Positions 7,172-31,675 of a DNA stretch of 33,153 nucleotides are shown piece after piece. Position 1 is the stretch's first letter. Each line of letters begins with the position of its first letter. Below the pieces are notes generated by a model. It made no database searches, was not told the origin of the DNA, and saw only the letters and a list, made by a program, of their open reading frames with translations. Source of the stretch: Candidatus Omnitrophota bacterium (GTDB taxonomy: Bacteria; Omnitrophota; Gorgyraeia; Gygaellales; Profunditerraquicolaceae). The DNA is taken from contig JALOQJ010000001.1 of the NCBI GenBank assembly GCA_025453445.1, positions 73,155 to 106,307 on the forward strand, written 5' to 3'. The position numbers and the translations under genes are program-made.

Positions 7172-9034
7172 ATGTTATTAGAAACTATTCAATCTACAGA
7201 GGACTTAAAAAAAATACCCATTGAACAGCTGCCTCCGCTGGCAGCTGAAATCAGGGCGAGGATAATCGAAGTCGTCTCCAAAAACGGCGGGCATCTGGCT
7301 TCCAGCCTCGGGGTAGTGGACTTAACTATCGCCCTGCATTATTGCCTGAATACCCCACATGACAAAATTATCTGGGATGTTGGGCATCAGGCCTATGCTC
7401 ATAAAATACTCACCCAAAGAAACAGTCAATTTGATTCTTTGCGCCAATATCAGGGTTTAACCGGTTTTCCCTGCAAAGACGAATCCATCCATGATCCATT
7501 TACTACGGGCCATAGTTCAACCGCTGTATCATTAGCTTTGGGCCTTGCCTGTGCCCGGGATTCTTCTTTAAGCAAAGAACAATATTTTAAAGTGGCGGCA
7601 GTAATCGGAGACGGTTCTTTAAGCGGTGGATTGTGTTTTGAAGGCCTGAATAACGCCGGCCATTTGAAGAAAGACCTTTTAGTTGTGCTCAATACCAATG
7701 AATTAAGTATTGCTCCGAATGTGGGGGCAATCAGCACATACCTAAATAAACTGATTTCTTTGCCGGTGTATAACCGTTTTAAAGATTCACTGGAAAATTT
7801 TGCCAAATCGCGCCTGCCTAAAGGAACGCGCCTGATAAAAATTGCCAATAGATTTGAAGAAGGCTTGAAAGGTTTATTTATCCCCGGGATGTTATTTGAA
7901 GAACTGGGTTTCAGGTATTTTGGGCCATTTGACGGGCATAATCCTGCCTTATTAATACAAACTCTTAAGAGAATTATCAATATTAAAGGGCCATTGTTGC
8001 TGCACGTGGTGACAAAAAAAGGAAAAGGTTATTTGCCGGCGGAAAATGAACCGGTGAGGTTCCACGGCACAGGGCCTTTTGAAATTGCTACTGGCAAGCC
8101 GGTAGTAAAAACAGGCGCACAAAATATATCTACCTTTACTCAGGTATTTAGCAATAAAATAGTTAGTTTAGCGAAAGATAATTTCAAAATAATTGCAATC
8201 ACCGCTGCTATGCCGGAAGGCACAGGCCTGGATAAATTCCGCGTTGCCTATCCGGAGAGGTTTTTTGATGTTGGGATTGCTGAAGCCCATGCAGTTTGCT
8301 TTGCTGCCGGCCTTGCCAGGCATGGATTAAGGCCTGTAATTGCCCTGTATTCAACTTTTCTGCAGAGAGCGTATGATCAGATTATTGAGGAGATCGCCCT
8401 GCAGGAGCTGCCGGTAGTATTTGCTATCGACCGCGCCGGTATCGTCGGAGAAGACGGAGCAACACACCAGGGTATTTTTGATATTGCTTATTTAAGATCC
8501 ATACCAAACCTGATCATTCTGGCGCCGAAGGACGGCCAAGAATTAGAAGCAATGCTGGAGTTTGCTTTTAATTGTGATAAGCCTGTGGCAATCAGGTATC
8601 CAAAGGCTGGGGCCGCAGAAAAATTACAAACAATCCCTGCGATTAAATTAGGCGAAGCTGAAATGTTAATTGAGGGGAATGATTTTGTTCTGATTGCTAT
8701 AGGCAGCATGGTATTGCCTTGCCTGGAAGCAGCAGAATTGTTAGATAAAGAAGGTTTAAGCGGGACAGTGGTGAACGCGCGTTTTGTTAAACCGCTGGAT
8801 AAAAAATTATTGCATCAGATGGGCAAAAGGTATAAATTTATTTTTACTGCGGAAGAAGGGGTTTTAGATGCTGGTTTTGGCAGCGCGGTGATGGAAGTGA
8901 TAAACAAGCCTGTGATTAGGCTCGGCCTGCCAACAGAATTTATTTGTTGCGGTAAGCGCAATACTCTGCTGGCAGATTATGGCTTGACAGCAGAGCTGAT
9001 TGCTGGAAGAATAAAACAAGAAATTCATTTTTAA
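7172..9034 (+). CDS. dxs: 1-deoxy-D-xylulose-5-phosphate synthase
   Basis: 620 residues, standard DXS length. It condenses pyruvate and glyceraldehyde-3-phosphate to DXP, the first step of the MEP isoprenoid pathway, with thiamine diphosphate. Visible motifs are SSLGVVDLTIALHY, DVGHQAYAHKILT, GHSSTAVS, the TPP motif GDGSLSGGLCFEGLNNAG, DVGIAEAHAV and DRAGIVGEDGATHQG. The usual LNDNEMSI is LNTNELSI here, so the middle Asp of NDN is Thr. The gene follows xseB by 6 bp, the common xseA-xseB-(ispA)-dxs arrangement, though no ispA-like prenyltransferase sits between. The ferredoxin gene starts 2 bp after its stop. Confidence 0.96.
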   Translation: MLLETIQSTEDLKKIPIEQLPPLAAEIRARIIEVVSKNGGHLASSLGVVDLTIALHYCLNTPHDKIIWDVGHQAYAHKILTQRNSQFDSLRQYQGLTGFPCKDESIHDPFTTGHSSTAVSLALGLACARDSSLSKEQYFKVAAVIGDGSLSGGLCFEGLNNAGHLKKDLLVVLNTNELSIAPNVGAISTYLNKLISLPVYNRFKDSLENFAKSRLPKGTRLIKIANRFEEGLKGLFIPGMLFEELGFRYFGPFDGHNPALLIQTLKRIINIKGPLLLHVVTKKGKGYLPAENEPVRFHGTGPFEIATGKPVVKTGAQNISTFTQVFSNKIVSLAKDNFKIIAITAAMPEGTGLDKFRVAYPERFFDVGIAEAHAVCFAAGLARHGLRPVIALYSTFLQRAYDQIIEEIALQELPVVFAIDRAGIVGEDGATHQGIFDIAYLRSIPNLIILAPKDGQELEAMLEFAFNCDKPVAIRYPKAGAAEKLQTIPAIKLGEAEMLIEGNDFVLIAIGSMVLPCLEAAELLDKEGLSGTVVNARFVKPLDKKLLHQMGKRYKFIFTAEEGVLDAGFGSAVMEVINKPVIRLGLPTEFICCGKRNTLLADYGLTAELIAGRIKQEIHF

Positions 9035-14571: not shown

Positions 14572-15102
14572 ATGCTAAAAAAAAGTGCGTGGTTGCTGAT
14601 GGTCATTCTTTTATCGCTTCCTACGATCTGCCTGGCGCGGCAAGTAGAAGATGTAGCTTCTTTTATTCATTCTCCGGAGGAGCTTTCCGAGTGGCTTCCC
14701 CAGAATGTGCAATACGAACTTGAAATGCCTGACTATTGGCAGTCTGCAGAAGAGACGCTTAAGCGGCATAAAGGGGATTGCGATGATTTTGCAATTCTTA
14801 GCAGCGCAATTTTAAGCGAACTAAAAATACCCAACCAGGTACTGATTATAAAATTCAGGGGAATTAGCCTGTCTCATGCCGTATGCGCATTTAAGTCAGG
14901 TGAATTCTGTGCTTTTGTTTCCAACGGGCAAATTATTTCTACAAAGGCATACTTAATCAGGGGAGCGGTTGAAGAGGCATACCCTGACTGGGAAACGATA
15001 GTATTTACTAATGCCAATAAAGACCGTTTAAAAGTAGTCAGCCGCAATAAAGTAGATAGAGCTGTCGAAGTCGGGTTGGAGACCGCACTGCGCAGCAGAT
15101 AA
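14572..15102 (+). CDS. Secreted transglutaminase-like cysteine protein
   Basis: 176 residues: signal peptide ending near CLARQ, then a compact transglutaminase-like fold. HKGDCDDFAILSSAIL carries the nucleophile Cys (C70), and SHAVCAF the His (H102). The third residue of the triad is not certain; N118 in SNGQ is a candidate. Proteins of this type act as periplasmic proteases or adapters, or only bind peptides. The substrate is unknown. A clear rho-independent terminator follows 25 bp after the stop. Confidence 0.72.
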   Translation: MLKKSAWLLMVILLSLPTICLARQVEDVASFIHSPEELSEWLPQNVQYELEMPDYWQSAEETLKRHKGDCDDFAILSSAILSELKIPNQVLIIKFRGISLSHAVCAFKSGEFCAFVSNGQIISTKAYLIRGAVEEAYPDWETIVFTNANKDRLKVVSRNKVDRAVEVGLETALRSR

Positions 15103-21042: not shown

Positions 21043-21939
21043 ATGCAATTACAAAAACAACAGATTTATTTGATTAGCGGCGCAGTGCTGGCTTTGGCTG
21101 CACTTTTGATGATCAAGGTTTTTCTTGATCAGCAGCGTAAAGCCGCAGAGCAGCAGGCTGCTACTAAGTTCAGAAAGATGCAGGAGAATCAGACTTCCGT
21201 TTTAGTAGCTACAAAGGATATTGTTAAAGGCGCCAGTATTGAAGGAGATAACTTTGAGGCGAAAATCATACCCAATCAGTTTGTTCAGCCGGGCGCGGTT
21301 ACTTCTTTAGATAGGATTTCCGGGATGATGACTGTTGCTCCGGTTTCCAAGGGCGAGCAGATTACTTTAAATAAGCTTAGTTATAGCCGTCAGGTAGGAG
21401 GATTAGCAGAAGTAACTCCTGCCGGCAAAAGGGCAATTACTATTTCTATTGATAACATCGCTTCTTTGGCCGGAATGATTAAGGCAGGGGATTACGTGGA
21501 TGTGATTGCTTTGATTCCTCAGATGGTTTCTATTGGTGAAGGCAAAACCGCCCAACAGCTGGCAGTCCTGCCGATATTTCAAAATGTATTGGTTCTGGCA
21601 GTAGGCCAGGATACCCGGCCTGCTCCAGCTAAAACTGATTTAAGGTTCAGAGGCATAGGCACAGAAGAGAAAAAAGAAACCGTGCCTTTAATTACTTTGG
21701 CGCTTACTCCCAAAGAAGCAAATTTAATTGCTTTTGTGCAGGAGCAGGGAAAAATTAAATTAACTATGCGTTCGCCCGCTGATTCCAAAGTAGAAGAAGT
21801 CCAACCGGCAAGCTGGGATGCTCTGTTGCAATACGTCTATCCAAGGCCGCCGGCAAAAGTTGAAGAAGAACCCAAGCCAGGCGATTATGTCGAGGTTTAT
21901 CGCGGCTTGAATAAAGAAAGAGTGCTTTTTAATAAATGA
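21043..21939 (+). CDS. cpaB: Flp/Tad pilus assembly protein CpaB (RcpC)
   Basis: 298 residues: N-terminal membrane helix (~8-27), SAF domain (~48-115: VLVATKDIVKGASIEGDNFEAKII, GMMTVAPVSKGEQIT), and the RcpC/CpaB domain (RAITISIDNIASLAGMIKAGDYVDVIAL). CpaB is a periplasmic component that works with the secretin of Tad systems. A long C-terminal Pro/Glu-rich tail ends VEVYRGLNKERVLFNK. The stop overlaps the secretin start by four bases (ATGA). Confidence 0.92.
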   Translation: MQLQKQQIYLISGAVLALAALLMIKVFLDQQRKAAEQQAATKFRKMQENQTSVLVATKDIVKGASIEGDNFEAKIIPNQFVQPGAVTSLDRISGMMTVAPVSKGEQITLNKLSYSRQVGGLAEVTPAGKRAITISIDNIASLAGMIKAGDYVDVIALIPQMVSIGEGKTAQQLAVLPIFQNVLVLAVGQDTRPAPAKTDLRFRGIGTEEKKETVPLITLALTPKEANLIAFVQEQGKIKLTMRSPADSKVEEVQPASWDALLQYVYPRPPAKVEEEPKPGDYVEVYRGLNKERVLFNK

Positions 21940-23567
21940 AAAAAATAATTATAATTCTTTTACTTATTACCGTAAGTTTCTTAGGGTTTCCCCTGACGGA
22001 TTATGCTTTAGATGAGGCGCAGGAAGTATTGAGATTATATCTCGGCCAAGTAACAATCATTCCTGTGAGCCATCCCAGCCGTGTAGCTGTGGGTAATCCC
22101 AATATTGCCGACATCGCCGCAGTTACTAAAACCGAAATTACCCTTGCTCCGAAAGCTGTTGGTTCGACGACGCTCGCCTATTGGGATAATTTCGGTGAGC
22201 AATCTTTTAAACTCAAGGTCTTTGCAGAAAATATTCAGGACATTAAGTTACGCGTAGATAATTTATTAAAACAGCTTGAGTTGCCTGAAGTTGCTACTAA
22301 GGCAGAGGAAGACGAAGCAAAAGTCCTGCTTTTAGGCAGGGTGAAGACTGCGCAGGAAAGAGAGAAAATCCTGCTTGCTTTGGGCCCATTAAAAGATAAG
22401 GTCCTTGACCTGACTAAATTAAAAGAAGAAGAAACGATTATTGAAATTGATGTGCAGGTGCTGGAGTTAAATAAAGATGCTACCGATACTTTAGGGTTGA
22501 CCAATCCTTTAAGTACGACTTCCGGTATTACTATTACAGAAGTTGGCAGTCCCGGTATTTCTGCGCTTGGCTCAAAATGGTCCACATTATTTAAAGTGCA
22601 AAATTTATTGCGTGGGACTTCTTCTACAGCAACAACGCCTTTTAGCTGGACTTTGTATGCTTTAATTCAGGAGGGAAAAGCACGCGTGCTTTCCCGTCCG
22701 CGCTTAGCCTGTCAGAGCGGTAAGGAAGCGGAATTATTAGTCGGCGGAGAAAAACCGGTTTTTACCACTACTGTTGCTGCCACAACCGGCGCAGAAGGCA
22801 CAGAAGTTGAATATAAGGAATACGGGATTAAACTAAAAATAAAACCTACTGTTAATGAAGACGAAAGAATTAAATTAGGCTTAAATGTTGAAGTAAGCGA
22901 AGTTGGCACTGCGGAATTTATCGGCTCAACTACTGACCGCACGGCTCAGGCATATCCTTTAAGCAAGCGTACTGCTGTAACTGAGCTATTCTTAAATGAC
23001 GGCCAGACTATGGCTATCGGCGGCCTGATGAAACAGAAAGAAGAAGAAGATGTAGTGCGTACTCCGTGGCTGAGCAATTTGCCTTTAATCGGCGGCGCTT
23101 TCAGAAAGAAACAGACTAAAACCGGCGGCGGAGCCGGAGAAAGAGGCGATGTAGAATTATTTATTACGCTTACTCCCAAGATTATCAGTAAAGATAATGG
23201 CACAGTGCAGGCAAAAAAAGATTTACAGCCTGCAGCTGTTGCGGTTACGCCGGCTGCAAATGTTGAAACTCCCGCTACTGCTGAAACAAGTTATGCCCGG
23301 CTTATCCAGCAGCAGGTTTTAAAAAACCTGACATATCCTCCTCAGGCAAAAGAATCAGGTTTTGAAGGTAAAACCAATTTAAGTATGCGCCTTTCATATT
23401 TAGGCGAGCTTATGGACGTAGCAATCAAGTCTTCCTCAGGTTATAAAATCCTCGACGATAATGCTGTGGCGGTAGCGCGTGAAATTACGTATTATCCGCC
23501 ATTTCCCCCTACGATCACACAAAAAGAACTCTGGATAGAAATACCGATTGATTACCGTTTAAATTAG
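21936..23567 (+). CDS. cpaC: CpaC/RcpA secretin fused to a C-terminal TonB domain
   Basis: 543 residues. In order: signal peptide (1-23); pilus secretin N-terminal domain (~28-95: LRLYLGQVTIIPVSHPSRVAVGNP); an intermediate domain (~100-165); secretin core (~168-420: EIDVQVLELNKD, ARVLSRPRLACQSG, LNDGQTMAIGGLM, LPLIGGAFRKKQT, DVELFITLTPKI); a Pro/Ala-rich linker; and a TonB C-terminal-like domain (~451-543: YARLIQQQVLKNLTYPPQAKESGFEGKT..., ending WIEIPIDYRLN). The secretin forms the outer-membrane pore of the Tad system. The added TonB_C domain is unusual; it may bind peptidoglycan or another envelope protein. No frameshift separates the two parts. Confidence 0.9.
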   Translation: MKKIIIILLLITVSFLGFPLTDYALDEAQEVLRLYLGQVTIIPVSHPSRVAVGNPNIADIAAVTKTEITLAPKAVGSTTLAYWDNFGEQSFKLKVFAENIQDIKLRVDNLLKQLELPEVATKAEEDEAKVLLLGRVKTAQEREKILLALGPLKDKVLDLTKLKEEETIIEIDVQVLELNKDATDTLGLTNPLSTTSGITITEVGSPGISALGSKWSTLFKVQNLLRGTSSTATTPFSWTLYALIQEGKARVLSRPRLACQSGKEAELLVGGEKPVFTTTVAATTGAEGTEVEYKEYGIKLKIKPTVNEDERIKLGLNVEVSEVGTAEFIGSTTDRTAQAYPLSKRTAVTELFLNDGQTMAIGGLMKQKEEEDVVRTPWLSNLPLIGGAFRKKQTKTGGGAGERGDVELFITLTPKIISKDNGTVQAKKDLQPAAVAVTPAANVETPATAETSYARLIQQQVLKNLTYPPQAKESGFEGKTNLSMRLSYLGELMDVAIKSSSGYKILDDNAVAVAREITYYPPFPPTITQKELWIEIPIDYRLN

Positions 23568-23568
23568 T

Positions 23569-25728
23569 ATGGCCAGAATAATTACCATCTTTAGCACAAA
23601 AGGCGGAGTGGGTAAAACTTTGGTTGCCACGAGCCTTGCTGTCAGCCTTGCCCAGGATGAAGCAAAAAAAACCTGCCTGATCGATCTTGATTTGCAGGTG
23701 GTCGGCGATATGGCACGCATGCTCGATTTACATCCACAGAAGGCAATGGTAGATTTAATCGGCCTCATAAAGAAGAAGCCGCAGGAGGTAAAAATTAAAG
23801 ATTTCCTTCTGCATAGCCCCGCCCTAGGGATTGATTTTATCCCCGCGGTTTTAAAGCCTCAGTCCAGCCCGCACTTAGACGCAGATAAAATTAAAGACGT
23901 CATGGAATTACTGGAAAAAAATTATGACTATATTATTATTGATGCCGGCAAGAGCTTCAGCGAAGTCTTTATCAATGTACTGAATCAATCCAACCTGATA
24001 CTGTTGGCAGTTACTCCGGATGTGCTTTCTATTTACCAGACCAAATGGGCGCTGGATACTCTGCAATTCCTGCATTTTCCTATGGCGATGATCCGGATTA
24101 TTTTAAATCGCGCTGAATCAGTATCTGGTATCAGCTGGCAGGAGGTACGGGTAAGTATCCCTGCTGATATTATTGCCCGCATCCCCTCGGAAGGAAGAGT
24201 GGCAGTGCAGGCAGTTAACCGCGGGGTGCCGATAGTTATTGATAACCCGAAAGCAAAAATTTCACAGGCGATAAAGGCTTTTGCCCATGACATAGCCACG
24301 CAGGATAAATTATTCCTTGAACACCATCAGATTGGGGAGCTGGGGATTAAAGAGGCGCCTGTTGAAAGAAATGGTAATTTCTGGCAATCCCAGGGTATGA
24401 CCGAGCCTCTGGCAGAGCCGTCAATTTCTGAAGAAATCGACGAGATATTATTATTGAAACGGCGCATTCACAGCCGGCTGATTGAAGAATTAAATTTAAA
24501 ACGCATGGACTCTAAATTCTTCAGCGATAGCAAGAAAACTAAAGAATTAAGGCTGAAAGCAGAAATAATGGTGGCGAATTTTCTTGCTGAAGAAGCAGGC
24601 AGCCTGATTTCTTCCTCTGATGTGCGCAGGAAATTAGTCAAAGAGATATTGGATGAGGCTTTAGGCCTGGGGCCGCTGGAAGATTTATTGGCAGAGCCCG
24701 GGATAACCGATATTATGGTGAATAATAAAGACGAAATTTATATTGAACGCGGCGGTAAAATTGAGCTGACCAGTAAAAAATTTATTTCTAATGATCAGGT
24801 AAAGACGATTATCGAGCGGATTATCGCCCCTATCGGCAGGCGTATTGATGAATCAGTGCCGATGGTTGATGCCCGGCTTCCTGACGGCTCGCGCGTCAAT
24901 GCGATTATCCCTCCGCTTTCTTTGACCGGGCCGTCGCTAACCATCCGTAAATTCCGCAAAGAACGTTTTAAGACCGAAGAATTAATTGAGCTGAATACCT
25001 TAAATCAGCCAATGGCGGATTTTATTAAGGCTTGTGTTGTGGCGAGAAAGAATATTATTGTTTCCGGCGGTACAGGAAGCGGTAAAACTACTATTTTAAA
25101 TGTGCTTTCTGCCTTTATCCCCGATAATGAGCGTATTGTGACGATAGAAGATGCCGCAGAATTAAAATTACATCAGGAGCATTGGATCAGGCTTGAGTCG
25201 CGGCCTCCGAATATCGAAGGACGGGGGGCGATTACTATCAGGGATTTATTCAGGAATACTTTAAGGATGCGTCCGGACAGGATTCTTATCGGCGAATGCC
25301 GCGGCATTGAGACACTGGATATGTTACAGGCAATGAATACCGGCCATGACGGCTCAATGACTACTGTGCATGCCAATTCCACACAGGATGTTTTTTCCCG
25401 GCTTGATTCGATGATTTTAATGGCCGGAGTGGAGTTACCGATTAGGGCAATCCGGGAAATGATTGCTTCGGCCATTGATATGGTCGTGCATACTGCCCGC
25501 CTTTCCGACGGAACACGTAAAATAATACAGGTTACCGAAGTCGCCGGAATGAAAGACGAAATGCATATTGACTTAAGGGATGTATTTACTTTCCGTCAAA
25601 GCGGCATTGATACCAAAGGTAATATTCTGGGTAATTTTACTGCCACCGGATACGTTCCCTCATTCATCGAAGAAATGAACATGAAGGGTATCATTCTCTC
25701 CAAGGATATTTTTAAAGCCAGCCAGTGA
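23569..25728 (+). CDS. CpaE-CpaF fusion: ParA/MinD-like ATPase joined to Tad secretion ATPase
   Basis: 719 residues in one uninterrupted frame. Residues ~1-245 are a CpaE/TadZ-like ParA ATPase with deviant Walker A KGGVGKT (11-17), DLDLQVVGD and IIIDAGKS. They lack the receiver-like N-terminal domain of classical CpaE. After a linker, ~290-719 are CpaF/TadA: GLGPLEDLLAEPGITDIMVN, VDARLPDGSRVNAI, Walker A GGTGSGKTT (500-508), RILIGECRG (Walker B, E576) and TTVHANST. CpaE normally positions the system and CpaF powers it by ATP hydrolysis. Here both sit in one chain, forcing 1:1 stoichiometry. The start is ATG 23569, 1 bp after cpaC; the stop overlaps the next start (GTGA). Confidence 0.93.
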   Translation: MARIITIFSTKGGVGKTLVATSLAVSLAQDEAKKTCLIDLDLQVVGDMARMLDLHPQKAMVDLIGLIKKKPQEVKIKDFLLHSPALGIDFIPAVLKPQSSPHLDADKIKDVMELLEKNYDYIIIDAGKSFSEVFINVLNQSNLILLAVTPDVLSIYQTKWALDTLQFLHFPMAMIRIILNRAESVSGISWQEVRVSIPADIIARIPSEGRVAVQAVNRGVPIVIDNPKAKISQAIKAFAHDIATQDKLFLEHHQIGELGIKEAPVERNGNFWQSQGMTEPLAEPSISEEIDEILLLKRRIHSRLIEELNLKRMDSKFFSDSKKTKELRLKAEIMVANFLAEEAGSLISSSDVRRKLVKEILDEALGLGPLEDLLAEPGITDIMVNNKDEIYIERGGKIELTSKKFISNDQVKTIIERIIAPIGRRIDESVPMVDARLPDGSRVNAIIPPLSLTGPSLTIRKFRKERFKTEELIELNTLNQPMADFIKACVVARKNIIVSGGTGSGKTTILNVLSAFIPDNERIVTIEDAAELKLHQEHWIRLESRPPNIEGRGAITIRDLFRNTLRMRPDRILIGECRGIETLDMLQAMNTGHDGSMTTVHANSTQDVFSRLDSMILMAGVELPIRAIREMIASAIDMVVHTARLSDGTRKIIQVTEVAGMKDEMHIDLRDVFTFRQSGIDTKGNILGNFTATGYVPSFIEEMNMKGIILSKDIFKASQ

Positions 25729-26234: not shown

Positions 26235-28331
26235 ATGCCCTCATACTCTCGAAAAAATTTACTTCAATTAGCTATCTTTTTAGCCTCGCTTTTTATCACC
26301 CAACCCCTTTATTCCCAATCAGCTGTAGAAAGAGCCACCCGCGAAGCAGATATTTTAGGTGACCGCGAGAAAATTCAGGAAAAATTAAGAACAGTTCCTG
26401 ATAAACCGCCTGCGCCCAAAGTAAAAGATGTGCCTTTAAGGGAACCGGGTGAAAAATTTTTCGTGAAAAAGATAAATTTGGTAGGTTGCGAATATATTTC
26501 TGCCAAGGAATTAGAGCCGTTTTTGGAGAAATACCAAAACAGGGACGTAACCTTGGCGGAAATTGAGACTTTAGCTAAAGAAATCGAGCGCGAATATTTA
26601 AGGCGGGATGTGATTGCCGCGGTAATTATTCCGGCGCAGGAACTTAAGGATCAGCTTGTAACTTTGCAGGTTATTGAAGCTAAAATGGGTGAGTTAAAAA
26701 TTCAGGAGCATAAGTATTTCAATAAAGACCGGCTGATGTATTATTGGAAAGTTCCTACCGGCACAATTATGCGTTATGATAGGATTTCCAAGAGCATACA
26801 GATGATGAATAAAAATCCCGACCGCGAAGTAAAAGCTGCGCTTGCTGCCGGTAAAAAACCCGGAACAACCGACGTAATTTTAACTCCTACTACGCGTTTT
26901 CCGATGCACGCCACCTATTCTTGGGATAATGAAGGAGTGCTCTCTAGCGGTAAAAAAAGATTAGGTTATGGCCTGCGCTACAATAATCTTTTTGGCTTAG
27001 ATGATACTTTTATCGGTGGTGCCAGTGTCGGAAGGTCATTCGGAGGCACATATTTTTACCATACTCTGCCGGTGAATTTTGAGGGAACGAGCATTATGTA
27101 TGGCTACAGCCGCAGCTGGTCAAAGCCTTTAGGAGACTATGCCGGTACCGGCCTGAAATCCGAAGCAGTAAACAGCAATATTTCTCTCCGGCAGGACTTA
27201 TATCGCAAAGATGAATATGTGGGCGAAGTATTTTTAGGTTTTGATTCTAAGGACAAAGTGATTAAGACCAGCACCCAGTTGATTAACCGCGACCGGCAGC
27301 GTATGTTTAGCATAGGGGCAAATCTCGTGGACCGGCGCGTAGGAAGCAGTACCTATATTTCTCCGGAGTTTGAGCAGGGCGTCAGCGCATTTGGCGCAAC
27401 TACTCATAATAATGTTTTTGCCTCCAGAAACGCATATCCGGTATTTAGCAAATTTAATTTAAGCGTTCAGCATAAGAGGGCGCTGCCTTATAATTTACAA
27501 GCAAATTTAAAGTTTAAAAGCCAGGTAACTTCCAGAAAATTAGTGCCGCAGGAACAATTCGGCTTAGGCGGTATTGATTCAGTGAGGGGCTATCCTGCCA
27601 GTGATTATTTGGCGGATAATGCCTTAAACACCAGCGCAGAAATCCTCATTCCGGCGTTTTTTATCCCTCAGGACTGGAAAATACCTTATGCCGAGGATAC
27701 TTTAAAAAACCAAACTACTGCTTTGGGCTTTGTGGATTATGGCTGGGGTATGCGCAGAGGGGCTTTACCTACGGAAAAAGGAAAAATTAATTTATTAGGT
27801 ATCGGCGCGGGCGTGCGTTTCAGCCTTTTTAATCAGGCGCTGCTGCGTTTAGAATGGGGGTTTCCTGTAGGCGCGAATAACCCCGAGACCGAAGGCGGAA
27901 GGGGAAGGTTTCATTTTGCCGTAGATGTTCAGGAAAAGACACCTGAGGAAATAGAGCGTATCCGTAAATTAGTCGAGGAAGAACATATCAAACAATGGGC
28001 ATGGAAACTGGTCAACGAAGAACTCTCCCGGCCGCTTAGCCCGATCAGGAAAAAAATAGACGGGCTTATGCAATTAGCTCATACTGCCGGGGAAAAAAAC
28101 AAGCAGGAAGAAGTGAGGATCATTAAACAAAAAATCAGCAGCCTGCAAGCTTCTTTATACCGGCAGGCAGAAGAATATGTGCGCGGCTGCATTCTGCAGG
28201 AAAAAGAGCTGCGTGAATACCGTAAGCTTGCCGAAGTAAGTTATAAAGAAGGCGATATTGATAAAGCAAAGCAGTTGTGGCAGAAGATTGTCGTTGAAGC
28301 AAAGCCCAAGCCTTTAATCCTTGAGTTTTAA
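26235..28331 (+). CDS. Two-partner secretion outer-membrane transporter (TpsB/ShlB-like) with a helical C-terminal extension
   Basis: 698 residues: signal peptide (to ~28), N-terminal linker with Pro-rich segment, POTRA domain (~75-150: FFVKKINLVGCEYISAKELEPFLEKY, TLQVIEAKMGELKI), then a beta-barrel (~220-565: THATYSWDNEG-like strands, QEQFGLGGIDSVRGYPAS as the VRGY/F motif of the family, FVDYGWG, LLGIGAGVRF, LRLEWGFPVG). Barrels of this family normally end at the last strand. Here RFHFAVDVQ is followed by ~130 mostly helical residues ending KAKQLWQKIV, a TPR-like hairpin, and a final Phe. TpsB proteins export large beta-helical adhesins. The promoter at 26176 starts the transcript; the next gene is 11 bp downstream. 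Confidence 0.9.
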   Translation: MPSYSRKNLLQLAIFLASLFITQPLYSQSAVERATREADILGDREKIQEKLRTVPDKPPAPKVKDVPLREPGEKFFVKKINLVGCEYISAKELEPFLEKYQNRDVTLAEIETLAKEIEREYLRRDVIAAVIIPAQELKDQLVTLQVIEAKMGELKIQEHKYFNKDRLMYYWKVPTGTIMRYDRISKSIQMMNKNPDREVKAALAAGKKPGTTDVILTPTTRFPMHATYSWDNEGVLSSGKKRLGYGLRYNNLFGLDDTFIGGASVGRSFGGTYFYHTLPVNFEGTSIMYGYSRSWSKPLGDYAGTGLKSEAVNSNISLRQDLYRKDEYVGEVFLGFDSKDKVIKTSTQLINRDRQRMFSIGANLVDRRVGSSTYISPEFEQGVSAFGATTHNNVFASRNAYPVFSKFNLSVQHKRALPYNLQANLKFKSQVTSRKLVPQEQFGLGGIDSVRGYPASDYLADNALNTSAEILIPAFFIPQDWKIPYAEDTLKNQTTALGFVDYGWGMRRGALPTEKGKINLLGIGAGVRFSLFNQALLRLEWGFPVGANNPETEGGRGRFHFAVDVQEKTPEEIERIRKLVEEEHIKQWAWKLVNEELSRPLSPIRKKIDGLMQLAHTAGEKNKQEEVRIIKQKISSLQASLYRQAEEYVRGCILQEKELREYRKLAEVSYKEGDIDKAKQLWQKIVVEAKPKPLILEF

Positions 28332-28342
28332 GAGCATATTTA

Positions 28343-31300
28343 ATGAATAACAGAAAGCCGAAAAAATATTTTATTATTTTTTTAACCGGGGTGTTTATTT
28401 CTTCGCATCTGGCTGCGTTTGCTCAGAATGCTGCGCCTGCTACCAAGCCTGCATCAGGCAGTATTGTTCCGGCGCCGGCTGTGCAAACCTTAAAGCCTGA
28501 GGAGAAAAAAGAAGAGCAGGTAGTTAAAGATGAAGTAGAAGTTGATGCGGAGTTTATTGAAAAAACATTGGCCGATTACAAACATAACCTGAAACAACTT
28601 ATTGAAACAGCAAAGCAGCATTTAGCCACCATAGATAAAGAAATAGTGGATGCCGAAGTTTTAGTTCGTAATAGAGAGAGAGAAAAGAAATTCCTGGTGC
28701 ATTTTTATAAAGCTGACAAATATTATTCTCAGGGGAATTTAAAAGATGCCAAGAAGGAATGGATGGAGGCGTTAAAGTATACTGAGGATCCTGAAATGCA
28801 GGGTTATATCCGGCAGGCAGAACAAATTGCTGTGCAGGAAGATGCTGCCCGGAAGAGAAAAGAAATTAAAGAGAAACAGGCGCGTGAAGCAGAAGCAAGG
28901 GAACAGGAAAAACAAGAAAAAGAAAGGAAGCGCCAGGAAATGCTCGCGCAGCAGGAGCAGGCTCGTTTAGATGCTGAAAAGAAGCGCCAGGAGGATCTCT
29001 TGCGTCAGGAAGAGGCGCGTAAACAGAAAGAAGAAAAAATCCGCTTAGAAAGAGAACGCCTGCAACAGGAGATTGAACAGAAAAAGGCTGAGATAGAATT
29101 ACAAAAAAGGCTGGCGGTTGAGAGGAAAGAACAGCTGCGCTTAGAAGTAGAAAAGCGCAAACAAGAAGAGTTGGCGCAAAAAGAACAAGCCCGTATCGAA
29201 ACAGAGCAAAAGCGCCAGGCAGCATTAGCGCGTCAGGAAGAAGAACGTAAATGTAAAGCCGAAGAATTACGCCAGAAAGAAGAGCAAGCCAGGCTAGAGA
29301 AACAACGCCAGGAAGAAGAGATTGCTCAGAAAAAAGCCGAAGAAGAAAAGAAGCGCCAGGCAGCATTAGCGCGTCAGGAAGAGGAGAAAAAACAAAAAGA
29401 AGAACAGCTAAAAAGAGAGGCTGAAGAGAAGCGGCAGGATGAACTATCCAAAAAACGGGTTGAAGCTGGATTAAAAGAACAAATTGAAGCTGAGCGCAGA
29501 GAAAAAGAAGCGCTTGCGCAGGAAGAAAAAGAGCAGGCGCGCCTTGCTGCAGAGAAACTTCGTCAGCGGGAGCTTAAACAACAGGAAGAAGCGGGTATAG
29601 AATCTGTTAAGAAAGCCCAAGAAGAAGCTGGCCGGTTGGAAGAAGAGCGTAAAAAAGCAGAAGAGCAAGTTAGATTAGGGAAGCAACGTAAAGAAGAAGA
29701 GCTCACACGTAAAGAACAGGAGCTTAAGCGTAAGGAAGAAGAATTACGCCAGAAAGAAGAGCAGTTAAAATTAGAGAAAGAACGCAAAGAGCAGGAACTT
29801 GCCCAAAAACAGGCAGAAATAGAATTAAAACAAAAAGAAGCAGCAGATAAGCTTGCACAAGTCCGTCTTGAGGCTGAAAGAAAACATCAGGAAGAGATCA
29901 GTCAACGCGAGGAGGCACGTAAGTTAAAAGAAGAGGAGCGTAAACAAAAAGAAGAAAAAATAAGATTAGAAAAAGAGCGGCGCCAGGAAGCGGCTCGGAT
30001 AGAGCAACAAAAGAGAGAAGAAGGTATCGCGAAAAGACAAGCTGAAGCCGAAGAAAAATTAAAACAACAAATTGTTGCAGAAACTAAACAGGTTAAAGAA
30101 GAGCTGGCGCAAAAAGAACAAGCCCGTATCGAAGCTGAAAAGAAACGTCAGGAAGGGTTGCAGCGTAAAGAAGAAATTCAACGTCAAAAAGGAGAGAAGC
30201 TTCGGTTGGAGAAGGAACGTAAAGAGGCAGAACTTGCTGAACAAGAAGCTGCGCTTGAAGAGAAAAGAAAACTGGAAGTTGATAAAAAAGCTGAGGTTGA
30301 AAGGAAACAACAAGAAGAATTCAACCGTAAAGAAGAAGCGCGCCGTGCTAAAGAAGAACAAATAAGATTAGAGAAACAGCGTAAAGAGGAAGAACTGGCT
30401 CAAAAAAAAGCCGAAGCAGAAAAACAGCGGCTGCAGGAATTTGTGATTAAAGAACAAGAGCGCCGCCAGAAAGAAGAGCAGGTAAAATTTGAAGCTGCGA
30501 AAAAAGAACAGGCTCGTCTTGAAGCTGAGAAAAAGCGCCAAGAAGAATTGCAGCGTAAAGAAGTTATTCGTCAACAAGAAGAGCAGCAGCGACAGGCAGA
30601 GTTTACTAAACGAAAAGAAGAAGCAGAGCGTAAAAAACAATTAGAGGCCGAGCAAAAAGAGCAAGCTCGTATTGAAGCCGAACAAAAACACCGGGAAGAA
30701 TTACAACGTAAAGAAGCTGAACGTCAGGCGAAAAAGGAGCAAGTTAGGATAGAAAAGCTTCGTAAAGAAGAAGAGATTGCTCAGAAAAAAGCCGAAGCAG
30801 AAAAACAGCGGATGCAGGACGCGGTTATTAAAGAACAAAAACAAAAATTAGAAGCTGAGAAAAAAGAGCAGCTGCGTTTAGAAGCAGAAAAGCGCAGGCA
30901 GGAAGAACTAGCGCAAAAAGAGCAAGCCCGTATTGAAGCCGAAGAAAGACGTCAAGAGGAGTTAGCTCAGCGGGAAGCTGAACGTCAGGCAAAAGAGGAA
31001 CAGGCTAGGATAGAAAAGCTTCGCAAAGAAGAAGAGCGGCAGCAGAAAGCAGTGCAGGCCAAAATAGAGAAAGAGCGCAGAGAAGCCGAACTTGCTCAGA
31101 AAAAAGCTGAAGCCGAAGAAAGACGTCAAGAGGAGTTAGCTCAGCGGGAAGCTGAACGTCAAGTAAAAGAAGAAGAGCAGCGGCAGAGAGAAGAGCAGGT
31201 TCGCTTAGAGAGACAGAGAAAAGCAGAAGAATTAGCGGAGAAGAAAGCTGAGGCAGAAGCAAGGCGTCAGGAAGAGCTTGCCCGGAAGGAAGAAGAGCGT

Positions 31301-31675
31301 AGGATAAAAGAGGAAGAGCTCACCCGGCAAAAAGCCGAAGCAGAACGTAAACGGCAATTAGAAATTGCCCGCCGACAAGAGGAGCAGAGGTTAAAAGAAG
31401 AACAGGCAAAAGTAGAAAACGCCATGCGTCAGCAGGAAATTTCCCGCAAAAAAACTGAAGCAGATTTAAGGAAAAGATTAGAGAATGAGCAAAAAGAACA
31501 GGCCCGGTTAGAAGCAGAACGTCTTCGTATAGATGAAGCAAAACAGGCCCGCCTGGAAGCCGAACGCAAATATAAAGAAGAATTGGCACAGCAAGAATCA
31601 GACCTCGCCCGCCGTCAGGAAGAACTCCAGAGAAGTAAAGAAATGCAGGAACAACTTCAAGGTTTAGAAGAGTAA
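28343..31675 (+). CDS. Giant secreted, highly charged single-helix/coiled-coil protein
   Basis: 1110 residues: signal peptide (~1-28, ending AAFAQN), a Pro/Ala-rich stretch (~29-50), a helical part with a TPR-like hairpin (~112-150: FYKADKYYSQGNLKDAKKEWMEALKY), and then ~940 residues almost only of Glu, Lys, Arg, Gln, Ala and Leu. Phrases such as KRQEELAQKEQARIEAE recur with variation. Such E/K/R patterns form stable single alpha-helices or coiled coils; fully extended, 900 residues would be about 135 nm. There is no known catalytic motif, cysteine pair or C-terminal anchor. It resembles no named family I can assign; similarity to TolA-like or caldesmon-like sequences is compositional. The frame is intact. 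It is co-transcribed with TpsB. Confidence 0.85.
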   Translation: MNNRKPKKYFIIFLTGVFISSHLAAFAQNAAPATKPASGSIVPAPAVQTLKPEEKKEEQVVKDEVEVDAEFIEKTLADYKHNLKQLIETAKQHLATIDKEIVDAEVLVRNREREKKFLVHFYKADKYYSQGNLKDAKKEWMEALKYTEDPEMQGYIRQAEQIAVQEDAARKRKEIKEKQAREAEAREQEKQEKERKRQEMLAQQEQARLDAEKKRQEDLLRQEEARKQKEEKIRLERERLQQEIEQKKAEIELQKRLAVERKEQLRLEVEKRKQEELAQKEQARIETEQKRQAALARQEEERKCKAEELRQKEEQARLEKQRQEEEIAQKKAEEEKKRQAALARQEEEKKQKEEQLKREAEEKRQDELSKKRVEAGLKEQIEAERREKEALAQEEKEQARLAAEKLRQRELKQQEEAGIESVKKAQEEAGRLEEERKKAEEQVRLGKQRKEEELTRKEQELKRKEEELRQKEEQLKLEKERKEQELAQKQAEIELKQKEAADKLAQVRLEAERKHQEEISQREEARKLKEEERKQKEEKIRLEKERRQEAARIEQQKREEGIAKRQAEAEEKLKQQIVAETKQVKEELAQKEQARIEAEKKRQEGLQRKEEIQRQKGEKLRLEKERKEAELAEQEAALEEKRKLEVDKKAEVERKQQEEFNRKEEARRAKEEQIRLEKQRKEEELAQKKAEAEKQRLQEFVIKEQERRQKEEQVKFEAAKKEQARLEAEKKRQEELQRKEVIRQQEEQQRQAEFTKRKEEAERKKQLEAEQKEQARIEAEQKHREELQRKEAERQAKKEQVRIEKLRKEEEIAQKKAEAEKQRMQDAVIKEQKQKLEAEKKEQLRLEAEKRRQEELAQKEQARIEAEERRQEELAQREAERQAKEEQARIEKLRKEEERQQKAVQAKIEKERREAELAQKKAEAEERRQEELAQREAERQVKEEEQRQREEQVRLERQRKAEELAEKKAEAEARRQEELARKEEERRIKEEELTRQKAEAERKRQLEIARRQEEQRLKEEQAKVENAMRQQEISRKKTEADLRKRLENEQKEQARLEAERLRIDEAKQARLEAERKYKEELAQQESDLARRQEELQRSKEMQEQLQGLEE
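30934..30987 (+). repeat. 54-bp exact repeat within the giant helical gene, copy 1
   Basis: The block beginning TGAAGCCGAAGAAAGACG is identical over 54 bp to 31108-31161, 174 bp (58 codons) away. Exact identity at synonymous positions points to recent duplication or gene conversion instead of protein-level constraint. Confidence 0.9.
31108..31161 (+). repeat. 54-bp exact repeat within the giant helical gene, copy 2
   Basis: Second copy of the block at 30934-30987, in the same frame. Shorter near-identical blocks also occur, for example around 30405-30430 and 30785-30815 (AAAGCCGAAGCAGAAAAACA), so the gene appears to grow and shrink by internal recombination. Confidence 0.9.

Follow-up and report, generated by a model that had tools for sequence, protein, structure and literature searches.

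The two-partner-secretion transporter encoded by tpsB in the window (the whole stretch of 33,153 nucleotides of Omnitrophota DNA analysed here) continues past the last strand of its β-barrel into a conserved helical domain. The explanation that we prefer, to which we give a probability of about 0.65, is that this tail is a periplasmic docking domain for the protein encoded by the next gene, the two most likely being used as an anchor or scaffold. The window comes from a genome of 1.29 Mb, whose close matches are Omnitrophota metagenome-assembled genomes (MAGs). The features concerned are collected in Table 1.

Table 1. Coordinates of the tpsB locus, numbered from the first nucleotide of the window
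Feature	Position	Strand	Basis
tpsB gene, 698-aa outer-membrane two-partner-secretion transporter with C-terminal tail	26235..28331	+	ORF, Pfam
POTRA_2 domain of TpsB, residues 75-148	26457..26678	+	Pfam
16-strand β-barrel of TpsB, residues 224-566	26904..27932	+	AlphaFold2/DSSP; Omp85 structure alignment
Predicted last strand 16 of TpsB, RFHFAVDVQ, residues 558-566	27906..27932	+	AlphaFold2; tailless relatives
Tail domain, residues 567-698, four helices, TPR-like, predicted periplasmic	27933..28328	+	Models, alignments, profile match
C-terminal peptide KPLILEF (consensus KPLxLEF) of TpsB-type tails	28308..28328	+	Alignments
Partner gene, 1110-aa secreted KREQ-rich protein, 11 bp past the tpsB stop	28343..31675	+	ORF, family alignment, phylum search
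Candidate docking segment of partner, VDAEFIEKTLADYKHNLKQLIETAKQHLATIDKEI	28541..28645	+	Element found in every partner
TPR hairpin of partner, HFYKADKYYSQGNLKDAKKEWMEALKYTE	28700..28786	+	Alignment; relation to tail hairpin
Charged rod of partner, ~940 residues, predicted single-α-helix type	28853..31672	+	Charge-pair statistics
3' part of convergent β-repeat exoprotein gene, probable TpsA substrate, cut by contig end	31685..33151	-	Composition; relative L063

By the defining protein features that we examined, the window protein is a TpsB/Omp85 transporter. Pfam assigns a ShlB-type barrel domain (PF03865, residues 210–529, E 3.3e-27) preceded by a ShlB-type POTRA (PF08479, residues 75–148, E 3.1e-12). 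In an AlphaFold2 model built with nine homologues, with strands assigned by DSSP, the barrel has 16 strands, of which the last comprises residues 558–566, with helices beyond it. The closest solved structure is CdiB (6wim; Foldseek 1.9e-22; VIA Z 25.5 over 440 residues, rmsd 4.0), and the VIA alignments of solved Omp85 structures to the model stop at residues 563–569. The initial annotation had ended the barrel near RFHFAVDVQ and had looked to structure prediction to locate strand 16; taken together, the model, the Omp85 alignments and the ability of the tail to fold alone show that this boundary is right. They also rule out the tail as a plug or as part of the barrel, the helices all coming after strand 16. 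At L040 / L069 (G290:C9), a TpsB lacks ~65 barrel residues (query 378–441) in frame and retains a full tail.

The fragment of the convergent exoprotein that lies in the window consists of 43% G, N, T and S. Pfam gave no match on this fragment, whose N-terminus lies beyond the contig end, and the equivalent convergent gene of a related locus, L063, encodes a TPS secretion domain (PF05860, 4.4e-26). The C-termini of the TpsA-like convergent exoproteins of L056, L063 and L155 share a motif of the type YKTVVIVFEGRVVVAPYDERG.

The interval originally marked as the tail, 27930–28331, corresponds to codons 566–698 plus the stop of the 698-aa ORF at 26235–28331, and our tail profile matches the window at precisely 27933–28328 (E 4.8e-53). 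That this region forms a distinct helical domain is borne out by structure prediction. AlphaFold2 places four helices at residues 570–598, 603–620, 624–671 and 675–688, and the tail modelled alone has a mean pLDDT of 93.4. The TPR-like hairpin suggested in the same annotation also finds support, since 14 of 18 Omnitrophota tails match Pfam TPR_2 at E<=0.1 (best 1e-6); the window tail's own match, at 15.4 bits, is under the 27-bit gathering cut-off. When the tail model was compared with the PDB, Foldseek returned no match at E<=0.001, and the best VIA match (Z 6.7 over 41–49 residues) covered short helix pairs only. The ClpB middle domain showed a partial resemblance (116–125 residues, rmsd 7–9) and was discarded as the tail fold. 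The models thus describe a TPR-like domain which, taken whole, matches no solved structure. Its placement in the periplasm, as first proposed, is what the topology would predict, because the number of strands is even (16) and the POTRAs are periplasmic.

The alignment of the 18 Omnitrophota tails spans all 132 columns and contains no internal stops; its mean column identity is 55%, and it has positions at which R, Q, Y, A, G or W is invariant. This conservation rules out a chance extension or read-through. Mean pairwise identity is 40% for the tails versus 50% for the rest of the protein. Absence from every homologue, which the initial annotation had named as a refutation, is itself refuted. 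In the nearest relatives (44–67% identity) the tail is complete to the final residue, as it is in many Omnitrophota TpsBs, but it is missing from a substantial set of relatives at 40–51% identity, which end at the same last strand or retain only the first ~20 residues of the tail. A paralogue in the window's own genome (G000:C42, 28% identity) likewise ends at the same last strand, tailless. Since it is absent from some close relatives and from the same-genome paralogue, the tail is a domain that has been gained or lost, and not a part of the barrel; five such changes are needed on the barrel tree. Two other TpsBs, in L081 (G262:C209) and L073 (G109:C4), have C-terminal extensions of other kinds, one a TPR-like hairpin (...YKHTNYYLKRI...) resembling the C-terminal repeats of partners, and the other charged and of low complexity.

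TpsB tails conserve the peptide KPLxLEF at their C-terminus or close to it. With its aromatic end and alternating hydrophobics this peptide could be read as a displaced BAM assembly signal, for which the helices would mainly act as a spacer, and it is this conservation that speaks for such a reading. We nevertheless judge it very improbable. Strand 16 retains its own normal motif, RFHFSVDF in the alignment, in tailed and tailless forms, four TpsB tails run on for 1–11 residues beyond KPLxLEF, and most of the tails found on giant proteins (see below) are without it. In addition, the helical part is itself conserved and has a high-confidence predicted fold. Because the normal strand-16 motif is kept with or without a tail, a C-terminal assembly signal is not obviously needed.

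The relatives of the partner protein have in common a segment of ~40 residues, with the consensus ...MPSYxLxLKxLIKEAExNIKKVDxEL..., and a TPR hairpin. This segment, the candidate docking segment, is the sole constant element, present even in partners without TPR or rod, and its 44-position profile matches only partners and one giant protein to which it is fused (in G248). According to hhalign (probability 91.5, E 8.5e-7), the partner hairpin and the tail's second hairpin are related. Partner lengths range from 84 to about 2270 aa, and what follows the conserved part is charged helix, further TPRs, or both. In the rod of the window partner, 266 i,i+4 pairs of opposite charge are found, compared with 154.6 +/- 9.2 in shuffles, and the net charge of the protein is +4; no heptad signal was found in the rod, which speaks against a heptad coiled coil. 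The excess of i,i+4 pairs, the lack of a heptad pattern and the near-zero net charge are together as expected of a single α-helix, which, fully extended, would measure ~140 nm. The sequences of the partners examined carry signal peptides and show no membrane or lipid anchor, features that point to a periplasmic protein. Against a use as an anchor, a scan of partners revealed neither a peptidoglycan-binding nor a membrane domain, and versions of 84 and 139 aa are without the rod, so that not every partner has one with which to anchor.

A search of 384 Omnitrophota genomes with the tail and partner profiles gave 56 tail matches. For 50 of these, a partner match lies on the same strand, 99–680 bp downstream or overlapping (one a fusion). 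The six exceptions are two tails at a contig edge (G139 and G164), the fusion in G248, a fragment in G133, a weak case in G053, and G027, where the tailed TpsB is followed directly by TpsA and a partner lies at the edge of another contig. At the TpsB loci that were inspected, the partner adjoins 18 of 19 tailed genes versus none of 12 tailless ones (Fisher p 9e-8). Tailless relatives that retain the first ~20 tail residues have no partner, and, on inspection by eye, none of the contigs on which a tailless TpsB is listed carries an unattached partner match. The gap between tpsB and the partner gene, 11 bp in the window, is mostly below 65 bp elsewhere; a promoter and terminator scan gave chance-level signals only. 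In one locus (L155, G118:C27, near 8720–8800) the partner gene is intact, and of the tpsB before it only 25 residues, from the end of the tail, are left.

Each time the presence of the tail flips on the barrel tree, the presence of the partner follows, with only two of the five independent contrasts lying on well-supported branches. Once the barrel is accounted for, tail and partner distances correlate only weakly (partial r 0.28, p 0.04), and coevolution measured in this way was dropped as support. Most of the co-occurrence falls inside related lineages, as it would if the tail were a drifting extension and the rod gene an unrelated gene of low complexity, the two staying together through shared locus ancestry. 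This by-product account is nonetheless very improbable, given the conservation of the docking segment and TPR in partners, the co-loss of tail and partner, the recurrence of the gene pair behind a giant protein of unrelated type, and fusions of tail and partner in three genomes.

In the first of these (G184), the TpsB tail is followed, within one protein, by the partner core (profile positions 6–93 of 118, E 3.7e-8), and no separate partner is present downstream of the fused tpsB. In the second (G248), the docking segment RDYPYNLDKLIKMSEKSIKRIDRKL follows the tail of a giant protein without a break (E 4e-5), and a docking-segment search among 770 proteins put nothing unrelated above threshold. 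In the third (G330), the tail continues into the TPR and rod of the partner; this ORF is short and is perhaps a copy in decay. Whilst sequence and prediction show the barrel, the tail and the pairing of the genes, we infer the interaction between tail and partner from their co-occurrence, their co-loss and the three fusions. The initial annotation had supposed that the tail could recruit a partner, and the adjacent gene, found beside tailed but not tailless TpsBs, is a specific candidate.

Approximately two thirds of the tail matches are not in TpsB at all, being the C-termini of giant ORFs, mostly of 2000–4300 aa, which contain DUF11 and bacterial Ig domains. The combination of tail and partner thus recurs behind a second type of protein. 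In these giants the last strand-like segment, GPFIRLTGKFY, precedes the tail in exactly the way that RFHFSVDFQ of TpsB does. Pfam recognises no known barrel family at the C-terminus of the giants, and it is this sequence pattern, together with the equivalent position of the tail, that suggests that their conserved C-terminal region is barrel-like. In the tail tree, the TpsB and giant tails form separate clades with 99/99 support, which rules out frequent swapping of tails between the two, so that one old transfer or a common origin is enough to explain their distribution. The long partners of giants (L145, L147, L150, L154 and L158) end in a similar motif, A-[LI]-D-x-[IF]-E, for example AIRSALDSIEQRL.

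From these patterns, the tail is likely to be a periplasmic docking platform for the partner, and the pair probably acts, we tentatively suggest, as an anchor or scaffold for the proteins by which huge surface proteins are exported or displayed. The domain appended past the last TpsB strand would dock, as its dedicated ligand, the secreted periplasmic protein of the next gene, which carries the ~40-residue segment and the TPR hairpin and in most cases continues into a long charged helix, additional TPRs or both. The partner would then stretch from the outer membrane towards the cell wall or other parts of the envelope, and would hold or stabilise transporters and giant surface proteins that bear large extracellular loads.

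The same domains could instead handle substrate, the TPR-like groove, aided by the partner, keeping the giant TpsA or the passenger unfolded in the periplasm and feeding it to the POTRA domains, so that the tail would be a chaperone and not an anchor. TPR-like domains often bind extended peptides, the tail and partner accompany export systems for very large proteins, and partners may consist of many TPRs, as in G262. However, close relatives without a tail export the same class of TPS protein (the L063 TpsA has a TPS domain), a feeding role is less natural in the giants, where the tail shares a polypeptide with the passenger, and the rod is rich in charge and without hydrophobic periodicity. 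We therefore regard substrate handling as unlikely. The anchor or scaffold reading can also be widened, though here we are tentative and would put it somewhat below even odds, to a portable two-gene envelope module of Omnitrophota, in which the docking domain and a partner with a long single-helix rod or a TPR array would give the export and display of very large surface proteins a tether on the inside of the envelope. The docking domain of such a module would be placed after the last strand of differing outer-membrane proteins, namely TpsB and giant surface proteins.

Two-partner secretion has been described as a system of two proteins, and a conserved third, predicted periplasmic component, with a putative docking site on the transporter, extends that description. 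With the known TpsB proteins CdiB (6wim) and FhaC (4ql0) the window TpsB shares a POTRA, a 16-strand Omp85 barrel and a VRGY loop motif, and its own gene lies beside a probable TpsA gene. The alignment of these solved proteins to the model goes no further than residue 567, whereas the window TpsB adds a predicted periplasmic domain of 132 residues and a dedicated third gene. In Slam, BcsC and PgaA an outer-membrane barrel is joined to a periplasmic TPR domain that serves to recruit periplasmic partners. In these, the TPR is N-terminal to the barrel, whereas in the window TpsB, according to Pfam and AlphaFold2, the N-terminal domain is the POTRA and the tail is C-terminal. OmpA-type proteins have a folded periplasmic domain past the barrel, with an anchoring role, so that the protein does not have to end at its last strand. 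OmpA, however, binds peptidoglycan directly through an α/β domain, in contrast to a helical domain and a separate protein here.

The closest published architecture that we found is that of the FadL-like porins of Treponema pallidum, which are similarly described as having a barrel followed by a C-terminal, presumptively periplasmic, helical TPR bundle (PMC8407342). The barrel there is of the FadL and not the Omp85 type, and the parts of that account available to us make no mention of an adjacent partner gene (PMC8407342). The HMW1/HMW2 two-partner systems do have a dedicated third partner, HMW1C, but this is a glycosyltransferase (PMC3983070), whereas the third protein of the window is predicted to be periplasmic and helical. 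Within the literature searched, of which coverage was incomplete, we found no description of C-terminal extensions of TpsB or of two-partner secretion in Omnitrophota. The near-constant pairing of the tail with a matching charged, rod-like protein points to a docking system that has not been described before and that giant surface proteins would use as well; as the candidate docking pair recurs on these, the sequences are suggestive of a docking module that can be transferred and is carried by outer-membrane proteins of two kinds. Giant ORFs and traits of adhesion and predation are known in Omnitrophota and are mechanically unexplained (PMC10066038). If the interaction is real, it would give a testable handle on how mostly ultra-small cells hold or export very large surface proteins, and would show a route by which periplasmic domains can be added past a barrel without loss of assembly.

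Several other genes at these loci are of note. FecR-domain and CHASE2-GGDEF proteins are encoded divergently, upstream of tailed tpsB, in L034 (5646–7795), L035, L036, L038, L040 and L044; these genes are not upstream of the window tpsB. A transglutaminase-like (DUF553 / Transglut_core) secreted protein lies between tpsB and the partner gene in L033 (10057–10581; assigned by Pfam) and in L040 (9159–9725; by resemblance), and a DUF553 protein is encoded elsewhere in the window, at 14572–15102. At 21936–23567 the window encodes a secretin-family protein (PF00263) of a Tad/Flp pilus cluster with a C-terminal TonB_C domain (PF03544, residues 464–542, 4.8e-14), an unusual combination. This is followed at 23569–25728 by a single 719-aa ORF in which a CpaE/TadZ-like ParA ATPase is fused to a TadA-type T2SSE ATPase, and an ORF similar to this fusion adjoins tpsB in L032 and lies near tpsB in L034.
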